The notes beneath the pieces are model-generated. The model made no database searches and had not been told where the DNA came from. It was given only the letters and a program-made list of their open reading frames with translations. From positions 1 through 64,000 of the forward strand of contig NZ_JAQQTD010000001.1 of the NCBI RefSeq assembly GCF_028561755.1: a DNA stretch of 64,000 bases. The letters run 5' to 3'. Below, in pieces: positions 44,481-54,578 of the stretch (positions are counted from its first letter, which is position 1; every line of letters starts with the position of its first letter). The translations under genes were made by a program, and so were the position numbers. Source of the DNA: Altibacter sp. HG106 (GTDB taxonomy: Bacteria > Bacteroidota > Bacteroidia > Flavobacteriales > Flavobacteriaceae).

Positions 44481-44603
44481 AATTCTCGTTTTTAACAAAC
44501 TACAAATATACCAAATATCCTCGGCACTTCCGAAGCGAAAAAAAACGTAAAAATCATTTACCATGCGCGATTTTTTCTACTTTTGAATAACTCAATACGA
44601 TCC

Positions 44604-46607
44604 ATGGAACACCAAAAAACATCCGCTCCAATATTCGACTATTCCACCTACGAGCTTGCACCCGAAATACTATTAGATCTTTATAAGGGTATTTTGCTCC
44701 CTCGAATGATCGAGGAAAAAATGCTCATCTTACTTCGACAGGGAAAGATCTCCAAATGGTTTAGCGGAATCGGCCAAGAGGCCATTTCTGTAGGAGTGGC
44801 ATCGGTACTTCAGAAGGAGGAATATATTTTACCAATGCATCGAAATCTCGGTGTTTTTACCATGAGAGACATCCCTTTATATCGCTTATTCGAGCAATGG
44901 CAAGGCAAGGCAAATGGTTTTACCAAGGGGCGGGATCGCAGCTTTCACTTCGGAACCCAAGAATACAATATTGTGGGTATGATCTCTCACTTGGGTCCAC
45001 AATTTGGCGTAGCCGACGGAATTGCTTTAGGAAATCTCCTTAAGAACAATGGGCAGGTTTGCGCCGTTTTTACCGGTGAAGGCGGCACCAGCGAAGGAGA
45101 CATACACGAAGCGCTTAACGTTGCTTCGGTATGGCAACTCCCTGTACTGTTTTGTATTGAGAATAATGGCTACGGTCTCTCAACTCCTACCGAAGAACAA
45201 TACCGTTGCGAGCACTTAGCCGATAGGGCACAAGGATACGGAATGGAATCACATATCATAGAAGGTAACAATATCGTAGCGGTGTATGGTAAACTGAAAG
45301 AAATTGTGGAGGACATGCGACAGCATCCAAAACCCGTATTAGTAGAGTTTAAAACCTTCCGGATGCGCGGTCACGAAGAGGCGAGCGGTACAAAATATGT
45401 GCCTCAGAACCTTATGGATCATTGGGAAGAAAAAGATCCCGTACGCAACTTTGAGCGGTACTTGATGGAAACCGGTATCCTTTCAGAAACCAAGAACGAA
45501 ACCTACAAAACCACTATAAAAAACGAAATCGACAAGCATCTGGAGCTTGCTTTTAACGCGCCTGAGATTATACCTTCGTTACCCGAGGAACTCACCGATG
45601 TTTTTCACCAAGACGAAACTCCGGAAGTGCCTCCGGCTACGGAAACCAAGGAAATCCGACTTGTAGATGCTATCTCTGAAGGCTTGCGCCAATCGATGGA
45701 ACAGCACGATAATTTGGTGATCATGGGGCAGGACATTGCCGAGTACGGTGGTGTTTTCAAAATCACAGAAGGCTTTGTAGAAGTCTTCGGAAAGGATCGC
45801 GTTCGAAACACTCCTATATGCGAATCGGCGATCGTTTCAGCAGCCATGGGACTTTCTATCAATGGATTTAAAGCGGTAATGGAAATGCAATTTGGCGATT
45901 TCGTGACTTCCGGGTTCAATCCTATCGTGAACTATTTAGCGAAGAGTCATTATCGCTGGAATCAAAAGGCAGACGTGGTAATCAGAATGCCATGTGGCGC
46001 CGGAGTAGGAGCAGGTCCGTTTCACAGTCAGACGAACGAAGCCTGGTTTACCCACACACCCGGATTAAAAGTAGTGTATCCGGCCTTCCCTTACGATGCC
46101 AAAGGCTTATTGGCTAGTGCCATTAATGACCCGAACCCGGTGCTTTTCTTTGAGCACAAGGCCTTGTATCGCAGTATTCGGCAGGAGGTGCCAACCGATT
46201 ATTATACGCTTCCGCTAGGCAAGGCAGCGTCTATTAAAGAAGGAACACAACTGAGCATTATCACTTACGGAGCCGGCGTACATTGGGCCATGAAAGTAGT
46301 GGATAGTGTAGCTGTTTCCGCAGATATCATAGACCTGAGAACATTGACACCCTTAGATACAGAAGCCATTTTTGCCTCTGTCCGCAAAACGAATAAGGTC
46401 ATAATTCTTCAAGAAGATTCCTTGTTTGGAGGCATTGCTTCCGATATCGCTTCGCTTCTGGCAGAACATTGTTTTGAAGCATTGGATGCGCCCATTAAAA
46501 GAGTGGCTAGTTTGGAGACCCCCATTCCGTTCGCTAAAGCATTAGAAGAACAGTATCTTCCTAAAGAACGGTTAAAGGAGGCTATACACGAGTTGCTCGC
46601 TTATTAA
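44604..46607 (+). CDS. Fused alpha-ketoacid dehydrogenase E1 (alpha-beta)
   Basis: About 667 residues from the ATG at 44604. N-terminal E1-alpha half (about 20-330) with thiamine-diphosphate motif GEGGTSEGDIHEALN, and a C-terminal E1-beta transketolase-like half (about 350-667) with EYGGVFKITEGFVE and the CESAIVSAAMG region. Such fusions form branched-chain or pyruvate-type dehydrogenase E1 in Bacteroidota. No E2 or E3 gene is nearby. A TACTTTTG -7 box (44578-44585) is upstream. The TTG at 44583 is too close to that box to be the start. Confidence 0.93.
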   Translation: MEHQKTSAPIFDYSTYELAPEILLDLYKGILLPRMIEEKMLILLRQGKISKWFSGIGQEAISVGVASVLQKEEYILPMHRNLGVFTMRDIPLYRLFEQWQGKANGFTKGRDRSFHFGTQEYNIVGMISHLGPQFGVADGIALGNLLKNNGQVCAVFTGEGGTSEGDIHEALNVASVWQLPVLFCIENNGYGLSTPTEEQYRCEHLADRAQGYGMESHIIEGNNIVAVYGKLKEIVEDMRQHPKPVLVEFKTFRMRGHEEASGTKYVPQNLMDHWEEKDPVRNFERYLMETGILSETKNETYKTTIKNEIDKHLELAFNAPEIIPSLPEELTDVFHQDETPEVPPATETKEIRLVDAISEGLRQSMEQHDNLVIMGQDIAEYGGVFKITEGFVEVFGKDRVRNTPICESAIVSAAMGLSINGFKAVMEMQFGDFVTSGFNPIVNYLAKSHYRWNQKADVVIRMPCGAGVGAGPFHSQTNEAWFTHTPGLKVVYPAFPYDAKGLLASAINDPNPVLFFEHKALYRSIRQEVPTDYYTLPLGKAASIKEGTQLSIITYGAGVHWAMKVVDSVAVSADIIDLRTLTPLDTEAIFASVRKTNKVIILQEDSLFGGIASDIASLLAEHCFEALDAPIKRVASLETPIPFAKALEEQYLPKERLKEAIHELLAY

Positions 46608-48088: not shown

Positions 48089-48109
48089 GCATTCGCCTTG
48101 CCAAATTTA

Positions 48110-48140
48110 AAACCCGTCAGACCTACATGGCGGGTTTTTT
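48110..48140 (+). terminator. Intrinsic terminator after ompA-like gene
   Basis: AAACCCG (48110-48116) / CGGGTTT (48131-48137) with further Ts. It separates the lipoprotein pair from the polyketide cluster and covers the open frame upstream of the oxidoreductase ATG at 48166. Confidence 0.75.
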
Positions 48141-48165: not shown

Positions 48166-49284
48166 ATGAAGTCATACGATATTATCATTATTGGAGGAGG
48201 CTTGGCCGGACTCTGTTGTGCTGTTCATCTGGCACAAGAGGGTGTCGCGGTCTGTTTGCTTGAGAAAAATACGTATCCGCATCACAAGGTTTGTGGAGAG
48301 TATATCTCCAATGAAGTGGTAGGTTATCTCAAACGCCTGGGTGTCGATCCGCTCAAAGAGGGAGCGGTGGCTATCAAAGAATTACATTGGTCAACTGCCA
48401 ATGGCAAAGACGTGTGCATCGATCTTCCGTTGGGTGGCTTCGGAATGAGTCGCTTTGCCTTAGACTATTTACTATTTAAAAAAGCCTCTGAGCGCGCAGA
48501 GGTGCGGCAGGCGACAGTTATCGATGTGGCATTCCAGAACGATACCTTCACAGTGACAACCCAGGCTGGAGATTCTTTTGAAGCAGGCTTCGTGGTCGGC
48601 GCCTTCGGAAAACGATCAGGCTTGGATAAGGTCTTACAGCGCTCTTTTATTGAAAAGCGAACCTCCTGGATGGCGGTAAAAGGTCATTATAACTACGAAT
48701 ATCCCGAGCATCGGGTGGGTCTTCATACGTTTGAAGGCGGGTATTGCGGTCTCTCGCGAACCGAATCCGGCAGCGTGAATGCCTGTTACCTGGCGACTGT
48801 TCCTTCTTTCAAAAAAAGTGGAAGTCTGAAACACCATCAACAGCAAGTGGTTTCCAGTAATCCTATTTTGTATCGTTTCTTTTCAGAAGCCACACCGCTC
48901 TTTGACGCGCCCCTTACCATCAGTCAGATTTCCTTCGCCCGTAAACCTCCCGTAGAACAACATATTTTCATGGTGGGCGATAGTGCCGGACTCATTCATC
49001 CGCTGTGCGGAAATGGCATGGCGATGGCTATTCATGGGGCAAAAATTTTCTGTGAATTATTTGTACATGCATCCAAAACAGGCACCATCATTCGGCAGCA
49101 ATTGGAACAGGAATACGAGAGAAAATGGGCTGACACCTTTTCGAGCCGCCTACGTACTGGAAGTTACATTCAGCAACTACTCCTTCGTCCGTTCTGGGCA
49201 AATGCAGGGTATCAAGTGGTGCGGGCAGTACCCGGACTCCTCAAAAAAGTGATTCAACAAACCCATGGAGCACCGCTGGCATAA
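48166..49284 (+). CDS. FAD-dependent oxidoreductase (UbiH/geranylgeranyl-reductase-like)
   Basis: 372 residues. N-terminal FAD motif IIIGGGLAGLCCAVHLA, the second FAD motif in MVGDSAGLIHPLCGNGMAMAIHGA, and no membrane anchor. This is a flavoprotein monooxygenase or reductase of the PHBH superfamily. In the srs pathway of Streptomyces, a flavin hydroxylase acts after the type III PKS, so a ring-hydroxylation role is plausible here. The methyltransferase gene starts 1 nt before its stop ends (TAATG). I use the ATG at 48166 since the earlier start lies in the terminator. Confidence 0.85.
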   Translation: MKSYDIIIIGGGLAGLCCAVHLAQEGVAVCLLEKNTYPHHKVCGEYISNEVVGYLKRLGVDPLKEGAVAIKELHWSTANGKDVCIDLPLGGFGMSRFALDYLLFKKASERAEVRQATVIDVAFQNDTFTVTTQAGDSFEAGFVVGAFGKRSGLDKVLQRSFIEKRTSWMAVKGHYNYEYPEHRVGLHTFEGGYCGLSRTESGSVNACYLATVPSFKKSGSLKHHQQQVVSSNPILYRFFSEATPLFDAPLTISQISFARKPPVEQHIFMVGDSAGLIHPLCGNGMAMAIHGAKIFCELFVHASKTGTIIRQQLEQEYERKWADTFSSRLRTGSYIQQLLLRPFWANAGYQVVRAVPGLLKKVIQQTHGAPLA

Positions 49285-49997
49285 TGGTTCAGTTTTCATC
49301 AACATATCGATCAAAGGAGGCTGAAATCATGGACGATTTCGAACTACACGGTGCCGAAATGCAACAACTTTTAACCGATCTGAAGACCGTCAACCGCTTG
49401 CTGGGAGGAAATGAGGTGACACTTTCCGGTATTGAACAATTGCTTCCGAAGCACCCTTTAACAAGGCCAATCACCATTTTAGATGTGGGCTGTGGCGATG
49501 GTGAAATGCTCCGACAGTGCGCACGTTATTTCCGAAGCAAAAATCAAGAAATTAAGTGTCTGGGCATTGATGCGAATCCGCATATTCTGGAGGAGGCCGC
49601 AACCCGTTCGGCCGATTTTCAAAACATTCGCTTTCAAAAGCATGATGTGTTTTCTACAAACGCCTCATTACCGCCATTCGATATTGCCTGCTGCACCTTA
49701 TTCTTGCATCATTTTAAGAATGACCAAATTCGTTTGCTCTTACAACAGTTCAGTGAGCAAGCCGCCCTGGGAGTAGTGGTTAACGATCTTGCCAGAAATC
49801 GTTGGGCATTTGAGTTGTTTAAACTATTTGGTTCTCTATTTTTGAAAAGTAAGATCGCAAAACACGACGGATTGGTTTCCGTAGCGAGAGGATTTAAAAA
49901 AGAAGAATTATTGGAACTGAGCAATACGATTGAAGGACACCATCAGATCACCCTGAAATGGGCATTTCGATACCAATGGATAATCACAAAACTATGA
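49284..49997 (+). CDS. SAM-dependent methyltransferase of the type III PKS cluster
   Basis: 237 residues. Motif I ILDVGCGDGEMLRQC at about 70-84 and motif II ACCTLFLHHF at about 130-140 of a class I fold. Probably methylates the polyketide product or its oxidised form on oxygen or carbon. It begins at the TAATG junction with the oxidoreductase and ends in a 4-nt overlap with the type III PKS, which argues for one transcript and coordinated synthesis. Confidence 0.85.
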   Translation: MVQFSSTYRSKEAEIMDDFELHGAEMQQLLTDLKTVNRLLGGNEVTLSGIEQLLPKHPLTRPITILDVGCGDGEMLRQCARYFRSKNQEIKCLGIDANPHILEEAATRSADFQNIRFQKHDVFSTNASLPPFDIACCTLFLHHFKNDQIRLLLQQFSEQAALGVVVNDLARNRWAFELFKLFGSLFLKSKIAKHDGLVSVARGFKKEELLELSNTIEGHHQITLKWAFRYQWIITKL

Positions 49998-51046
49998 GCG
50001 TACACATTCCTGCAGTGGCTAAACAGCTACCTCCGTACACGAGAAATACTTCGGAAATACTTCCGTTTGTAGAAATGTGGATGAGCGGGCAAGACAAACG
50101 ATTCCAGCGTAAGGTGATGAAGATCTTTGAAGGCGCTGGAGTAGATCGCCGCTACGCCATCATGGACGCACCCGATGTTTTTGAGCATACCTCTTTTGAA
50201 GCGCGAAACGAGCTGTATGTGGAGGCAATGAAAAAATTAGGCAAACAATCGCTTGAGAAAGCCTTGCAAAAAGCGCAGTGGAATCCAAAAGAGATAGATT
50301 TTATAATCACCGTGAGCTGCACAGGCATCATGATTCCTTCCGTAGATGCGTATCTGATCAACGAATTGGGCATGCGACAAGATATCGTTCGCTTGCCGGT
50401 TACCGAAATGGGCTGCGCGGCCGGTATCTCGGGAATGATCTATGCCTATCAGTTTTTAAAAGCGAATCCCGGGAAGCGCGCTGCCGTGATCGCTCTCGAA
50501 TCGCCTACCGCCACCTTTCAATGGAATGATTATTCGATGGTAAACATTGTTAGCGCCGCTATTTTTGGCGATGGTGCGGCCTGTGTGCTATTGTCTTCTG
50601 AAGAAAATGCCACCGGACCCAAAATTATCGATGAAGGGATGTATCACTTTTACGATGCTACCCACATGATGGGCTTTAAATTGGTGCATAGCGGACTCCA
50701 AATGATCTTAGATAAATCGGTCCCGGAAACGATCGCAACACATTTTCCGAAAATCATTCATCCATTTTTAGAACGCAATGGAAAAACAATTGAAGACGTA
50801 GATCATTTGATCTTTCATCCGGGCGGGAAGAAGATCGTGCAAACCGTTGAAGACTTATTCGGAAGCCTCGGTAAAAATATTGATGATACAAAGGCCGTTC
50901 TCAAAGAATACGGAAATATGAGCAGCGCAACGGTACTATATGTTTTGGAACGTTTCATGGACCGAAACCCGGAACCGGGCAGTTTAGGGATTATGCTCAG
51001 TTTTGGACCTGGATTCTCGGCCCAACGGATCTTATTAGAGTTTTGA
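49994..51046 (+). CDS. Type III polyketide synthase (chalcone/stilbene synthase-like)
   Basis: 350 residues. Catalytic triad Cys141 (TEMGCAAG), His275 (FHPGGKK) and Asn308 (YGNMSSATV) are in place, as in PhlD-, ArsB- and SrsA-type enzymes. It condenses malonyl-CoA onto an acyl starter to give resorcinols or pyrones. The start is the ATG at 49994, which overlaps the methyltransferase stop; an upstream start is possible but unneeded. The adjacent fatty-acyl modules suggest a long-chain ACP-bound starter. The product is unknown. Confidence 0.92.
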   Translation: MSVHIPAVAKQLPPYTRNTSEILPFVEMWMSGQDKRFQRKVMKIFEGAGVDRRYAIMDAPDVFEHTSFEARNELYVEAMKKLGKQSLEKALQKAQWNPKEIDFIITVSCTGIMIPSVDAYLINELGMRQDIVRLPVTEMGCAAGISGMIYAYQFLKANPGKRAAVIALESPTATFQWNDYSMVNIVSAAIFGDGAACVLLSSEENATGPKIIDEGMYHFYDATHMMGFKLVHSGLQMILDKSVPETIATHFPKIIHPFLERNGKTIEDVDHLIFHPGGKKIVQTVEDLFGSLGKNIDDTKAVLKEYGNMSSATVLYVLERFMDRNPEPGSLGIMLSFGPGFSAQRILLEF

Positions 51047-51047
51047 T

Positions 51048-51824
51048 ATGACACAACAATCAATAAAAAATCAGTGGGCGTTAGTAATAGGGGGCAGTAG
51101 CGGACTCGGTTGGGCGTCTGCCGCTCAGTTAGCGGAGGACGGATATCATCTGTGCATTGTGCATCGCACTCGTAGAAGTGCCTTAAAAGAGTTTGAAGCA
51201 AAAGCGCTCGCCTTAGAAGAACACGGTATACAAGTTCTCCAATTCAATCAAAATGCGTTAGCAACAGAGACCATTAATAAGGTGCTTTTGGAACTCCCAA
51301 AACAGTCCGTTGCCGTCCTAATCCACAGTATTGCCAAGGGAAGCTTGAAGCCTATGAATACGTCTGAGGGAGCGTTACAGATTGAAGATCTCAATATTAC
51401 CTTGCACGCTATGGCTACGAATTGGTACCAATGGACACAATTGGCCATTAACACAGATCGCTTGGCGCATTCGGTGTGTAATGTGGCCTTTACTAGCGAA
51501 GGAAACAATAAGGTTTGGCCCGGATATGGGGCCGTATCTGCTGCCAAAGCTACTCTGGAAGCCTTAATGCGTCAAATGGCGGTAGAATTTGCCCCCAAGG
51601 GAATTCGCACCAATTGTATTCAGGCAGGAACCACCATAACCCCTTCGTTTGAAATGATCCCGGGGAGTGAGCAATTGGCTAAAATGGCGGAAAAAAGAAA
51701 TCCGTTTCAGCGACTCACAACGCCTAAGGACATCGGAAATGTGGTTTCCATACTTTCTTCGGAAAAAGGAGCCTGGATCAATGGTACCGTACTCATAGCC
51801 GACGGTGGCGAACACTTGCGCTAA
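51048..51824 (+). CDS. SDR family enoyl-ACP-reductase-like protein
   Basis: 258 residues. Rossmann motif GGSSGLGWASA, then YGAVSAAK, in which Tyr and Lys are separated by six residues (Tyr-x6-Lys), the FabI/FabL spacing rather than the Tyr-x3-Lys of ketoreductases. Ends WINGTVLIADGG. It would reduce enoyl-ACP in a dedicated acyl chain pathway. Lies 1 bp after the type III PKS and overlaps the dehydratase by 1 nt. Confidence 0.82.
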   Translation: MTQQSIKNQWALVIGGSSGLGWASAAQLAEDGYHLCIVHRTRRSALKEFEAKALALEEHGIQVLQFNQNALATETINKVLLELPKQSVAVLIHSIAKGSLKPMNTSEGALQIEDLNITLHAMATNWYQWTQLAINTDRLAHSVCNVAFTSEGNNKVWPGYGAVSAAKATLEALMRQMAVEFAPKGIRTNCIQAGTTITPSFEMIPGSEQLAKMAEKRNPFQRLTTPKDIGNVVSILSSEKGAWINGTVLIADGGEHLR

Positions 51825-52273
51825 TGACAAAAAAGTTTCAATACATACTCGATCAGCTGCCCTACAAAGCACCCTTTCGCTTTATTGATCATCTCACGCA
51901 TGTGGATGAAGAGGGTGCGTCAGGCACCTTCACATTTTCAGAAACCTTAGATTTTTATCAGGGTCATTTTGTAAACCATCCGGTTACCCCCGGAGTGATC
52001 CTCACCGAATGTATGGCGCAAATTGGGGTGGTATGCTTAGGACTTTTTTTAGCCGCTTCGGAAAAACTCTCTGATACGGCTACCGTCGCACTTAGTGAAA
52101 CGAATATTGTATTTCATAAAGCGGTATTTCCGGGAGAAAAGGTGTTTGTTGCCTCAGAGAAAGTATACTTCCGCTTCGGAAAGCTAAAATGTAAGGTGCG
52201 CATGAAGAATACCAAGGAGGAAGTCGTTTGCCAGGGCACTATTAGTGGCATGTTAATTCAACCAGACTTATGA
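51824..52273 (+). CDS. FabZ-like 3-hydroxyacyl-ACP dehydratase
   Basis: 149 residues, hot-dog fold. The motif GHFVNHPVTPGVILTECMAQ keeps the catalytic His and Glu but has Val-Asn-His in place of the usual Pro-Gly-Arg. It dehydrates 3-hydroxyacyl-ACP. Its 3' end overlaps the ketosynthase by 4 nt. Located between the reductase and the ketosynthase, so part of a small fatty acid synthase type II set. Confidence 0.88.
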   Translation: MTKKFQYILDQLPYKAPFRFIDHLTHVDEEGASGTFTFSETLDFYQGHFVNHPVTPGVILTECMAQIGVVCLGLFLAASEKLSDTATVALSETNIVFHKAVFPGEKVFVASEKVYFRFGKLKCKVRMKNTKEEVVCQGTISGMLIQPDL

Positions 52274-53541
52274 AACCACGCATTGTTATCACCGGACTGG
52301 GAATCGTTGCTCCCAATGGAGTGGGTTGCACCAACTTTGAAGCCGCTTTGCGTTCGGGAAGCTCGGGCATTCGTTTTTTTCCGGAGTTAGAAGCCTTGAA
52401 GTTCTCATGCCAGATAGGAGGGAAGCCGCCTCTTACGCAAAACATCATAGACGCCAATTTGTCTGCGCTACAGCAACGGAACTTTAATGCCAACGGAATT
52501 CTATACGGAATCATTTCCGGAATGGAAGCCTTACGAGATGCCAATATACGCCCTGCCACTGCCGAGGAAGATCCGTTATGGAACCTCGGGATCATCTTTG
52601 GAACGGGCACAAGTGGTGTTGACAAGTTTCGCGAAGCCATCTACCAGGTAGATGATAAAAAAGTACGTCGATTAGGAAGCACTACGGTGGTTCAAACGAT
52701 GGCTAGCGGTATTAGTGCCTATTTGGGAGGCATGATAGGTGCCGGAAATCGAGTTACCACCAACTCGGCTGCCTGTGCCACCGGCACCGAAGCCTTGCTT
52801 CTTGGGTATGAACACTTGGTGGCCGGAAAAGCAAGGCAAATGCTCTGTGGTAGCTGCAGTGATGACGGTCCGTATCTCTGGGGTGGTTTTGATGCCATGC
52901 GCGTCACCACCTGGAAATACAATGATGCACCAGAACAGGGCTCGCGGCCCTTGAGTGCTTCCGCCAGTGGATTTGTTCCTGCAAGTGGTGCCGGAGCCTA
53001 CGTGCTAGAAACCCTGGAAAGCGCCAAGGCAAGAGGCGCTACAATGTACGCGGAAGTACTGGGAGGCGCCATCAATAACGGTGGGCAACGCCTTGGTGGT
53101 AGCATGACCGCTCCTAACAACACGGCGGTGCAACGTTGCATCATCGATGCACTTAGTAATAGCCAGGTTTCCGCTTCAGAAATCGATTATATCAATGGGC
53201 ATTTAACGGCGACCGTTAAAGATCCGGTAGAAATAGACAATTGGTGCAAAGCGTTGCAACGTTCCGGAGCGGACTTCCCCTATATCAACTCGCTCAAAGG
53301 AATGATCGGGCATGGCTTGGCGGCAAGCGGTAGTATGGAAATTGTTGCTAGCCTACTTCAGTTAAAACACAACTTTATTTTCCCCAATGTAAATGCAGAA
53401 GATCTTCATCCGGATATTGAAAATCAAGTGGATAGCGATCGCATTCCGAGAAACACTTTAGAAATTCCGCTAACCACCGTGGCAAAAGCGAGTTTCGGTT
53501 TTGGAGATGTCAACGCGTGTGTTATCTTTAGAAAAATTTAA
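52270..53541 (+). CDS. Beta-ketoacyl-ACP synthase, FabF-like
   Basis: 423 residues. Cys169 in NSAACATGTEAL, His311 in YINGHLTAT and His348 in LKGMIGHGLAAS form the C-H-H triad, so it is an active ketosynthase and not a chain-length factor. The first His motif, NGHLTAT, departs from the usual NAHGTST. It elongates an acyl-ACP, presumably the starter for the type III PKS. Overlaps the dehydratase by 4 nt and is followed 6 bp later by the ACP. Confidence 0.9.
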   Translation: MKPRIVITGLGIVAPNGVGCTNFEAALRSGSSGIRFFPELEALKFSCQIGGKPPLTQNIIDANLSALQQRNFNANGILYGIISGMEALRDANIRPATAEEDPLWNLGIIFGTGTSGVDKFREAIYQVDDKKVRRLGSTTVVQTMASGISAYLGGMIGAGNRVTTNSAACATGTEALLLGYEHLVAGKARQMLCGSCSDDGPYLWGGFDAMRVTTWKYNDAPEQGSRPLSASASGFVPASGAGAYVLETLESAKARGATMYAEVLGGAINNGGQRLGGSMTAPNNTAVQRCIIDALSNSQVSASEIDYINGHLTATVKDPVEIDNWCKALQRSGADFPYINSLKGMIGHGLAASGSMEIVASLLQLKHNFIFPNVNAEDLHPDIENQVDSDRIPRNTLEIPLTTVAKASFGFGDVNACVIFRKI

Positions 53542-53547
53542 AACTCC

Positions 53548-53805
53548 ATGACCACCGAACGGATTTACGCCAAATTACTTCCCATTATTCAAAATTATTT
53601 ACCTGAAGATGTTTCTCCAGATGAGGTTGACCCCGATAAGGATCTCACCCGAGAACTGAATATCAATTCGGCACATCTGGTGGATGTGGTTTTAGACGTG
53701 GAAGACGCTTTTGATATTGAGTTTGCAAATGACGATATGGAAAGTTTGCGCACCGTAAACGACGCCATTAAGATCATTCAGAAGAAACTCAACCAAGATG
53801 CCTAA
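53548..53805 (+). CDS. Acyl carrier protein
   Basis: 85 residues, acidic, four-helix pattern. The phosphopantetheine serine is Ser41 in INSAHLVDVV, where the usual Asp-Ser-Leu is replaced by Asn-Ser-Ala-His-Leu. It carries the growing acyl chain for the ketosynthase, dehydratase and reductase encoded just upstream. TerC begins 2 bp after its stop. The altered motif suggests a specialised ACP with its own partner proteins. Confidence 0.88.
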   Translation: MTTERIYAKLLPIIQNYLPEDVSPDEVDPDKDLTRELNINSAHLVDVVLDVEDAFDIEFANDDMESLRTVNDAIKIIQKKLNQDA

Positions 53806-53807
53806 GC

Positions 53808-54575
53808 ATGGAAGGACTTTTTACTCCCGAAAACTTCATAACACTTGCGCTCCTAACCCTACTTCAAGCGGTTCTAGGGCTCGATAATTTATTATACATC
53901 TCGATTGAGTCGAAGCGCGCGCCCCTTGAAAAACAGAAGAAAGTGCGCCAATTGGGCATCGGGCTCGCCATTGTGCTGCGTATTGTACTGTTGTTCGTTT
54001 TATTGCGACTTATCGAATTGTTTCAAGATCCCTTCTTCGGAATTCACGGGAACGGTATTTTTGAAGGTGATTTTAACTTACACAGCATCATTGTTTTATT
54101 TGGCGGCGTATTTATCATGTATACAGCTGTAAAAGAGATATTACATATGATGACTATCGAAAAGCATCAAGCTGAAGCTGCTAAACCAAAATCGGTGGGC
54201 ATGATTATAACCTCCATTGTGATCATGAATCTGGTGTTTTCCTTCGATTCTATTCTGGGCGCTATTGCCCTGACGGATGTCTTTTGGGTGATGGCAACAG
54301 CGATCGTTATTGGTGGATTGCTCATGATCTGGCTCAGTGGAAAAGTCACCGAATTCTTAAAAAAGAATCGGATGTATGAGGTACTCGGACTCTTTATTTT
54401 GTTGATCGTCGGGGTTATGTTGCTTTCGGAAGGAGGACATATTGCCCATTTAAAACTCTTCGGAAACGAGGTTACACCTATGAGCAAAACGACCTTCTAT
54501 TTTGTCATTGCGGTCCTGGTGCTTATTGATATTGTGCAAAGTCGCTATCAGAAAAAACTCAACCAACAATTGTAG
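53808..54575 (+). CDS. TerC family membrane protein (YkoY/YgdQ-like)
   Basis: 255 residues, about seven membrane helices with the two TerC signatures VLGLDNLLYIS and LVFSFDSILGAIAL; the Asp residues in these helices likely bind a metal ion such as Mn2+ or Ca2+. Members export metals or assist metallation of exoenzymes. Only 2 bp separate it from the ACP gene, so it may be co-transcribed with the polyketide cluster by accident or by design. A second TerC protein is encoded at 62775. Confidence 0.9.
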   Translation: MEGLFTPENFITLALLTLLQAVLGLDNLLYISIESKRAPLEKQKKVRQLGIGLAIVLRIVLLFVLLRLIELFQDPFFGIHGNGIFEGDFNLHSIIVLFGGVFIMYTAVKEILHMMTIEKHQAEAAKPKSVGMIITSIVIMNLVFSFDSILGAIALTDVFWVMATAIVIGGLLMIWLSGKVTEFLKKNRMYEVLGLFILLIVGVMLLSEGGHIAHLKLFGNEVTPMSKTTFYFVIAVLVLIDIVQSRYQKKLNQQL

Positions 54576-54578
54576 CCA

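Follow-up and report, generated by a model that had tools for sequence, protein, structure and literature searches.

What does a type III polyketide synthase (PKS) make when it is encoded between two tailoring enzymes and four genes for building an acyl chain? The question is raised by a locus of Altibacter sp. HG106 (Flavobacteriaceae; NCBI RefSeq assembly GCF_028561755.1, contig NZ_JAQQTD010000001.1), of which positions 1 to 64,000 were analysed (the window, 64,000 nucleotides). Seven genes at 48166-53805, all on the + strand, encode in this order an FAD-dependent oxidoreductase (FADox), a methyltransferase (MT), the type III PKS, a short-chain dehydrogenase/reductase (SDR), a FabZ-like dehydratase, a ketosynthase (KS) and an acyl carrier protein (ACP). 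Judged from sequence, the product would be a long-chain alkyl lipid whose phenol ring (resorcinol, hydroquinone or benzoquinone type) is methylated and carries an extra hydroxyl, a reading that we hold with somewhat better than even confidence. What is new here is that the PKS clade and a portable type II acyl cassette set the cluster apart from known type III PKS lipid clusters.

The gene identities come from open reading frames and Pfam matches, which bear out the seven genes on one strand and the families named in a preliminary description made from the DNA alone. The PKS matched PF00195 with 75.7 bits and PF02797 with 70.9 bits (cut-off 27 each), PF00195 having a single match in the genome, and PF00109, PF07977, PF00550, PF13561, PF13649 and PF01494 were also over the Pfam cut-off among the cluster proteins. 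Four of the six junctions overlap by 1-4 nucleotides (nt), as that description had said of most of them, and the remaining two are gaps of 1 and 6 nt.

PKS matches (E <= 1e-22) occur in 142 of 397 sampled Flavobacteriaceae genomes, representing 92 of 237 genera, and all are of the close kind (at least 59% identity) except one (G095, 31%); another (G173) is in two pieces. A class-wide sample yielded matches in 110 of 395 genomes at 111 places, 26 of the close kind (at least 51%) and 85 distant (25-35%). Phyla beyond the sampled class were covered by a plasmid collection and by a named scan, which returned at least 553 PKS relatives. The best 80 were kept, including those of Altibacter, Aureisphaera, Aequorivita, Ulvibacter, Psychroserpens, Winogradskyella, Lacinutrix, Aquimarina, Polaribacter, Gelidibacter and Flavobacterium, and 72 of these loci had enough flanking sequence to be read (the named loci). 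All seven genes are present in order in 53 of the 72 and six in order, lacking the SDR, in 18; the single broken locus (L192) retains FADox, MT, PKS and SDR only. At the SDR-less loci the FabZ match begins within 74 nt of the PKS in 13 cases and after a gap of 180-1647 nt in five. The 12 regions examined within the family, which were chosen for having the PKS, all hold the seven genes in order, with inserts in some. Ten close-kind regions of other families comprise six with all seven genes, two without the SDR (L102, L119) and two without an ACP match (L106, L108). Active sites were counted over 102 loci, using sequences above set score cuts. The Cys, His and Asn of the PKS are invariant in 102 of 102 relatives and in the window, the Cys/His/Lys/His of the KS in 96 of 96, the His/Glu of FabZ in 100 of 100, the Ser/Tyr/Lys of the SDR (Y-x6-K) in 81 of 81 and the phosphopantetheine Ser of the ACP in 95 of 95. 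The PKS residues (Cys141, His275, Asn308) and KS residues (Cys169, His311, His348) of the preliminary description are correct. Since the order recurs in all 12 regions and in 53 of the 72 named loci and the catalytic residues are invariant, the cluster is more than a chance arrangement; by its sequence it is a real, conserved and active-looking pathway.

In the PKS tree, whose groups were set from gene context and which contains long branches, the window-type PKSs form a fully supported clade of their own (100/100). The PKSs of three-gene operons (PKS, MT and FADox) of Bacteroidota group with those of Deinococcus, Falsirhodobacter, Sphingobium and Novosphingobium, and a third side is formed by BpsA-like, R. 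etli, Pks11 and CylI enzymes. Forcing the window-type and three-gene PKSs into one clade was rejected by the approximately unbiased test (p-AU 0.00845), whereas holding the window type with the BpsA side was not (p-AU 0.565). The former value is softer than its face value because one row (L211) joined the tested group after the tree had been seen, because of the long branches, and because support for the window clade was only 74/86 in an earlier, larger tree with an unsettled bootstrap. Sequence comparison thus indicates that the window PKS is not an ortholog of the three-gene operon PKSs and has a separate ancestry. Phylogeny had been suggested as a check in the preliminary description; it places the PKS in a clade of its own, apart from the three-gene PKSs, and leaves standing a union with the BpsA side, which includes pyrone makers.

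The best relative of the PKS in the PDB is Pks11 (176 bits), named as an alpha-pyrone synthase. Its best relatives among the plasmid rows are a PKS encoded next to an ICMT gene (208 bits, 33.7% identity), which we take to be BpsA-like, and the R. etli PKS (191 bits), presumably RePKS; the best PKS of the plasmid collection is 34% identical. Among the other enzymes of this side, CylI is taken here to be resorcinol-forming. Residue Phe228, which we equate with Trp281 of ArsB, is Phe in 101 of 102 window-clade PKSs, Trp in Pks11, Leu in CylI and Tyr in the solved SCO1206 enzyme, and because the residue varies in this way the ArsB-Trp281/ArsC-Gly284 site was dropped as a predictor of ring type. 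The site was placed by its nine-residue spacing to Met293 (PMC6274091). ArsC (3VS8) was not among the best 60 rows of each PDB search. The best NCBIfam model, DpgA (171 bits, cut-off 425), is uninformative as a name, as five other bacterial PKSs score 144-187 bits and one 116 on the same model. With 21.3 bits on the DarB model NF053539 (cut-off 550), the window PKS is not of the DarB type.

Two unusual motifs are constant in the acyl-building set. In all 96 KS sequences the motif is GHLT, in which Leu follows the first active His where the usual motif has Gly, and the residue before the ACP serine, usually Asp, is Asn (INS) in 95 of 95. The best curated model and the best PDB relative of the SDR are both FabL (125 of 328 bits on the model, under cut-off). 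Its Y-x6-K is the enoyl-reductase pattern, so the cluster has no ketoreductase of its own, and ketoreduction, given the likeness to FabL enoyl reductases, is probably supplied from elsewhere. An AlphaFold model of the KS has a mean pLDDT of 77.3, with segments below 50 at residues 114-146, 165-167 (just before Cys169) and 211-233. A phosphopantetheinyl transferase homolog lies 3' of the ACP in 49 of the 72 named loci, within 45 nt in 47 of them, its identity being confirmed by PF01648 for four examples. In the window a TerC gene occupies that place, the nearest relatives have no phosphopantetheinyl transferase match, and the genome encodes one PF01648 protein.

A KS-led search recovered 11 loci from 10 genomes (L257-L267) with no window-type PKS in the stretch read; three of these are contigs under 10 kb, where a PKS may lie past the contig end. 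The cassette KS had no match in the plasmid collection at 1e-70. KS and ACP matches are present at all 11 loci, FabZ at nine, a phosphopantetheinyl transferase at seven and a cassette-type SDR at six. At L257 and L258 the cassette is divergent from dar genes. The L257 products include DarB (632 bits, cut-off 550) and DarH (454 bits, cut-off 300), no model matched the gene called DarA, and all three have homologs at L258 (64-75% identity). Elsewhere the cassette lies among glycosyltransferase and asparagine-synthase genes (L265), beside asparagine synthase (L266), a family 2 glycosyltransferase (L259, L260) or a GNAT-type gene (L259, L261), or with no obvious partner (L262, L264). In the KS tree, GHLT is found in all 16 cassette KSs and in neither of the outgroup rows, which number two only, as a single ketosynthase of the Altibacter genome passed the filter. 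The ACPs of L260 and L261 have LDS in place of INS, which is thus not cassette-wide. Hence SDR-FabZ-KS-ACP, often with a phosphopantetheinyl transferase, is by these sequence comparisons a portable cassette. Its position beside dar genes at two of the 11 loci would link it to resorcinol chemistry in a second pathway, and through this DarB link a resorcinol-type product is likelier than from the PKS tree alone. At L263 a KASIII-type gene (L263:1532-2524; PF08541, 54 bits) lies within the cassette, between FabZ and KS; other loci have a type III PKS upstream. The Altibacter genome itself has a separate region (C19:183416-196462) with several ketosynthase matches around a true DarB (C19:192043-193167, 646.7 bits, cut-off 550). 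This is probably a flexirubin/dialkylresorcinol cluster, in which case the genome would hold two resorcinol-type systems.

The tailoring enzymes appear to have a different history from the PKS. Thirty loci with a distant PKS were examined (29 of the 85 class-wide places and one from the family scan), and MT and FADox homologs lie beside the PKS in 21, an MT only in one and neither in eight. In the 21 loci the identity to the window proteins is 29-44% for MT, 34-44% for FADox and 25-31% for the PKS. None of the 30 has a FabZ or ACP match; a weak KS match (29%) lies 3-4 kb past FADox at L113 and L114, and L113 and L212 have a weak SDR match. Against the Bacteroidota three-gene operons FADox scores 188-323 bits and MT 101-200 bits, the next matches in the Altibacter genome being at 24 and 28 bits, respectively. 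The comparison set consisted of Bacteroidota and Alphaproteobacteria operons of this layout. The nearer relatives of FADox and MT are such operons, and the FADox of the Deinococcus operon gave no blastp match at 1e-4. In trees with outside rows neither kind forms one side of a branch for FADox or for MT; three sequences from Alphaproteobacteria lie outside, and that of Deinococcus sits on a very long branch. In larger, quick trees the FADox kinds are the two sides of one branch (93) and the MT kinds are not. We read these comparisons as the joining of one tailoring pair to two different lineages of PKS.

In Pfam the MT has eight matches, all to models of the class I methyltransferase type and none to ICMT. 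SrsB of the Streptomyces SrsABC system is an ICMT-type methyltransferase, and ICMT-type genes were seen beside the BpsA-like PKSs compared. The srsA/srsB/srsC logic of the preliminary description is therefore not supported for this cluster, where the MT is of class I and the nearer relatives of both tailoring genes are in three-gene operons. The solved sequences closest to FADox are halogenases (CmlS, 96 bits). With its predicted model (mean pLDDT 87.8), the best fold match is PltA (Z 36.3, root-mean-square deviation 2.8, 359 residues aligned) and the first seven rows are halogenases or related; 3-hydroxybenzoate 6-hydroxylase (Z 33.2) and p-hydroxybenzoate hydroxylase (32.8) follow lower. A GxGxxG pattern is present in 11 of 13 and 16 of 18 FADox sequences, some of which were entered with a trimmed start. 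The best NCBIfam model would make FADox a geranylgeranyl reductase, a role that was set aside since the score is under cut-off (100 of 158.8 bits) and the listed fold rows are all halogenases or monooxygenases. Sequence and model thus place FADox among the class A monooxygenases and halogenases. By analogy, ring hydroxylation by FADox would fit hierridin B, which carries a hydroxyl at position 4 and is O-methylated (PMC10896814), and the polyketide quinones (PMC9927152). Both O- and C-methylation are alternatives for methyltransferases of this sort (PMC10896814).

Several observations weigh against an alkylated resorcinol or quinone. The closest PKSs (BpsA-like, R. etli, Pks11 and CylI) include pyrone makers, so that a pyrone is possible, and the FADox model is nearer to phenol and pyrrole halogenases than to hydroxylases. 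The FADox and MT trees are poorly resolved, and the two dar-linked loci group together in the KS tree, the other nine having different partners or none that is obvious. Within the cluster there is no ketoreductase, malonyl/acyltransferase or acyl-CoA ligase, and the SDR-less form is common among the named loci. In the planctomycete work no role was assigned to the oxidoreductase, and the methyltransferase was C-type-like, unlike HidA, so that tailoring is not readable from it here (PMC10896814).

An alkyl-alpha-pyrone, with the MT capping the pyrone hydroxyl and the flavoprotein modifying the pyrone or the chain, is the alternative with most behind it, and we regard it as unlikely. It would account for Pks11, the BpsA-like PKS and the R. 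etli PKS being the best relatives, for the unrejected union with the BpsA side and for the Phe at the Trp281-equivalent site. The same side of the tree holds CylI, however, and Pks11 has Trp at that site, so that neither the tree nor the residue settles the ring; moreover, FADox and MT have relatives in three-gene operons, and some of these operons produce resorcinols (PMC10896814). Appreciably less probable is a polyenyl phenol pigment resembling the aryl polyenes, for which the cassette would produce a chain that is unsaturated or a polyene. The retention of KS and dehydratase where the reductase is absent (18 of 72 loci) is in line with such a pigment, but the SDR, where present, is of the enoyl-reductase type (81 of 81, FabL best) and no ketoreductase is kept, the reverse of the pattern in aryl polyene clusters; the genome also has its separate region with several ketosynthases and DarB.

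Two further alternatives concern the tailoring genes. If the locus were an ordinary three-gene polyketide-quinone or hierridin operon whose PKS merely diverged after gaining four fatty-acid genes, the homology of FADox and MT between the two kinds and their lack of separation in trees with outside rows would follow, the larger quick MT tree likewise leaving the kinds unseparated and only the FADox kinds being split by one branch. The PKSs nevertheless do not form one clade, and those of the three-gene operons group with Deinococcus and the others; we consider this history very unlikely. Least probable of all is halogenation by the flavoprotein, which would yield an alkylphenol carrying chlorine or bromine. 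CmlS and PltA as best matches speak for it, but aromatic hydroxylases are ~3 Z lower over the whole chain, and WxWxIP, which we take to be the halogenase fingerprint, is in none of the 13 and none of the 18 FADox sequences.

The resorcinol or quinone thus remains the likeliest product, and we propose the following pathway for it. The ACP would be phosphopantetheinylated by a neighbour-encoded enzyme in many relatives and here by the single PF01648 protein of the genome. KS, FabZ and the enoyl-reductase-type SDR, together with a housekeeping malonyl transferase and FabG, would extend an acyl chain on the ACP. The type III PKS would then take the chain from the ACP (or from CoA), add ~3 malonyl units and close the ring, which the flavoprotein may hydroxylate and the methyltransferase methylate on O or C. 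All of the reactions, the hand-over from the ACP, the type of ring, the order in which tailoring proceeds and where it acts, and a membrane location are inferred; the gene identities, intact catalytic residues, conserved operon, other contexts of the cassette and separate PKS ancestry are seen in the sequences. The combination, as first described, of type III PKS, methyltransferase and flavoprotein with the cluster's own acyl-building genes and dedicated ACP is supported. The claim that the four genes build the acyl starter stands for a dedicated ACP set and fails as to completeness, ketoreduction and malonyl transfer being external and the SDR absent from 18 of 72 loci. Likewise, the alkylresorcinol- or quinone-type lipid named there is still the best candidate on sequence, tempered by pyrone makers among the nearest PKSs.

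The coordinates are collected in Table 1. The FADox frame is open from 48127, a start that would overlap the hairpin upstream, and the PKS frame is open from 49958; the start at 49994, from which PKS residues are numbered, is the residue where most aligned relatives begin. The terminator scan found 12 such sites against 10.1 expected in shuffles and is weak by itself; the hairpin has the longest stem listed. We take it as the 5' edge of the operon, which probably starts at 48166. A sigma-70 promoter scan was uninformative (9 found, 14.2 expected). Genes for a branched-chain keto-acid dehydrogenase E1 (44583-46607) and an OmpA-like protein upstream were rejected as pathway members because clusters of other lineages are without them and the hairpin intervenes. 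A TerC-type membrane protein gene (53806-54578) begins 2 nt past the ACP, followed by an rRNA methyltransferase, and is absent in many relatives; with this spacing and no terminator between the two genes listed in the scan, transcription may continue into it.

Table 1. Features of the type III PKS operon in the window
Feature	Coordinates	Strand	Assignment and details
Terminator-like hairpin and T run	48109..48138	+	11-pair stem, 8-nt loop, T-rich tail; 3' of OmpA-like gene
FADox	48166..49284	+	FAD-dependent oxidoreductase, class A monooxygenase/halogenase fold; probable ring hydroxylase
MT	49284..49997	+	Class I S-adenosylmethionine-dependent methyltransferase; probable ring methylation (O or C)
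Type III PKS	49994..51046	+	Cys141, His275, Asn308; Phe228
SDR	51048..51824	+	FabL/FabI type (Y-x6-K); probable enoyl-ACP reductase
FabZ	51824..52273	+	FabZ-like 3-hydroxyacyl-ACP dehydratase; His48, Glu62
KS	52270..53541	+	FabF/FabB-like; Cys169, His311, Lys343, His348; Leu312 after first active His
ACP	53548..53805	+	Phosphopantetheine Ser41; INS instead of DS context

Relatives of the cluster vary in their surroundings. An exporter-like gene follows the phosphopantetheinyl transferase in some (L036:3407-5653, L038:2616-4856, L105) and occurs in six of the 80 named loci kept (L154, L172, L175, L178, L180, L185); that of L036 belongs to the MMPL/HAE3 family (PF03176, 88 bits), and such neighbours suggest lipid export. 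A second MT match near the cluster (L101:14108-14767, L105:7629-8291, L171, L177, L190) hints at doubly methylated products. At L038 an IS200-type Y1 transposase gene (L038:7533-8090; PF01797, 30 bits) lies between FabZ and SDR of an otherwise complete cluster. A 5.3-kb contig labelled Candidatus Nitrotoga (L201) encodes a PKS of 75% identity with FADox, MT, FabZ and KS matches, the label probably being a binning error in a metagenome-assembled genome.

Type III PKS clusters make up 9% (PMC7440613) or 10.74% (PMC10734526) of the biosynthetic clusters predicted in Flavobacteriaceae, there is at least one per Aquimarina genome studied (PMC9323603), and a PKS 69% identical to one from Zobellia galactanivorans has been reported (PMC6139392). 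The accessible parts of these four papers name no product of flavobacterial type III PKS clusters, and a full-text search, with subscription literature mostly outside its scope, found no paper tying this cluster to one, in agreement with the preliminary description. In the literature found, this is thus a widespread flavobacterial lipid pathway without an identified product. The PKS clade lies in one conserved gene set in 71 of the 72 named loci, which points to the genes to express, and it is now separated from the three-gene type that shares its tailoring genes. A quinone would be a second redox lipid for a major marine bacterial group and a resorcinol a new envelope lipid, and the cassette could serve as a part for producing acyl-ACP starters. 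More broadly, we tentatively suggest, with much doubt, that Bacteroidota have a portable acyl-supply cassette, marked by a GHLT ketosynthase and accompanied by a phosphopantetheinyl transferase of its own, that is coupled to unrelated ring-formers (a private type III PKS clade or DarB) and in about one third of Flavobacteriaceae makes a methylated quinone-type lipid beside menaquinone and flexirubin.

The cluster has a type III PKS next to a methyltransferase and an FAD oxidoreductase, a layout also seen in the three-gene operons for polyketide quinones in Mycobacterium and Streptomyces, hierridins in cyanobacteria and alkylresorcinols in planctomycetes, and the Bacteroidota operons of this layout have clearly homologous MT and FADox. 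However, their PKS is of another clade, and the 30 distant loci have no FabZ or ACP match. Such layouts have been tied to alkylresorcinols, hierridins and polyketide quinones (PMC10896814, PMC9927152, PMC8086630), the last from Streptomyces and mycobacterial operons (PMC9927152). Planctomycete PKSs of such operons, when expressed, gave pentadecyl- and heptadecylresorcinols, and with the Gimesia maris methyltransferase and oxidoreductase added, the product carried one methylation, which was attributed to carbon (PMC10896814).

BpsA-BpsB type pairs have the nearest PKS among the plasmid rows, but their methyltransferase is of another family, and no flavoprotein, KS or ACP is annotated beside the PKS-ICMT pair in the Lysinibacillus and Stenotrophomonas regions. 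The gene neighbourhood of a Lysinibacillus plasmid (PKS, ICMT, GTP-binding protein, rpmG) recurs almost unchanged on a plasmid labelled Stenotrophomonas rhizophila (L240/L241), a label that may be wrong. On plasmid pLA3 of Novosphingobium pentaromativorans, ACP, KS, type III PKS and flavoprotein genes are likewise adjacent, but the PKS belongs to the three-gene clade, and the KS, with HGT in place of GHLT, shares only 24% identity; by sequence this is an independent pairing.

The Azotobacter ars system (ArsA-ArsD) likewise has a dedicated fatty acid synthase feeding alkylresorcinol and pyrone type III PKSs, by way of multidomain synthase subunits. Its synthase has an ACP domain, whereas KS, FabZ, SDR and ACP of the window are separate small proteins, free-standing type II enzymes that would lean on the housekeeping system. 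ArsB and ArsC take acyl groups directly from the ACP domain of ArsA (PMC6274091). Finally, the cassette of SDR, FabZ, KS, ACP and phosphopantetheinyl transferase is also found beside dar (dialkylresorcinol/flexirubin) genes at L257 and L258, but the ring there comes from DarB; the window cluster has no DarB-type ketosynthase, the DarB of this genome being encoded elsewhere, and its ring would come from the type III PKS.

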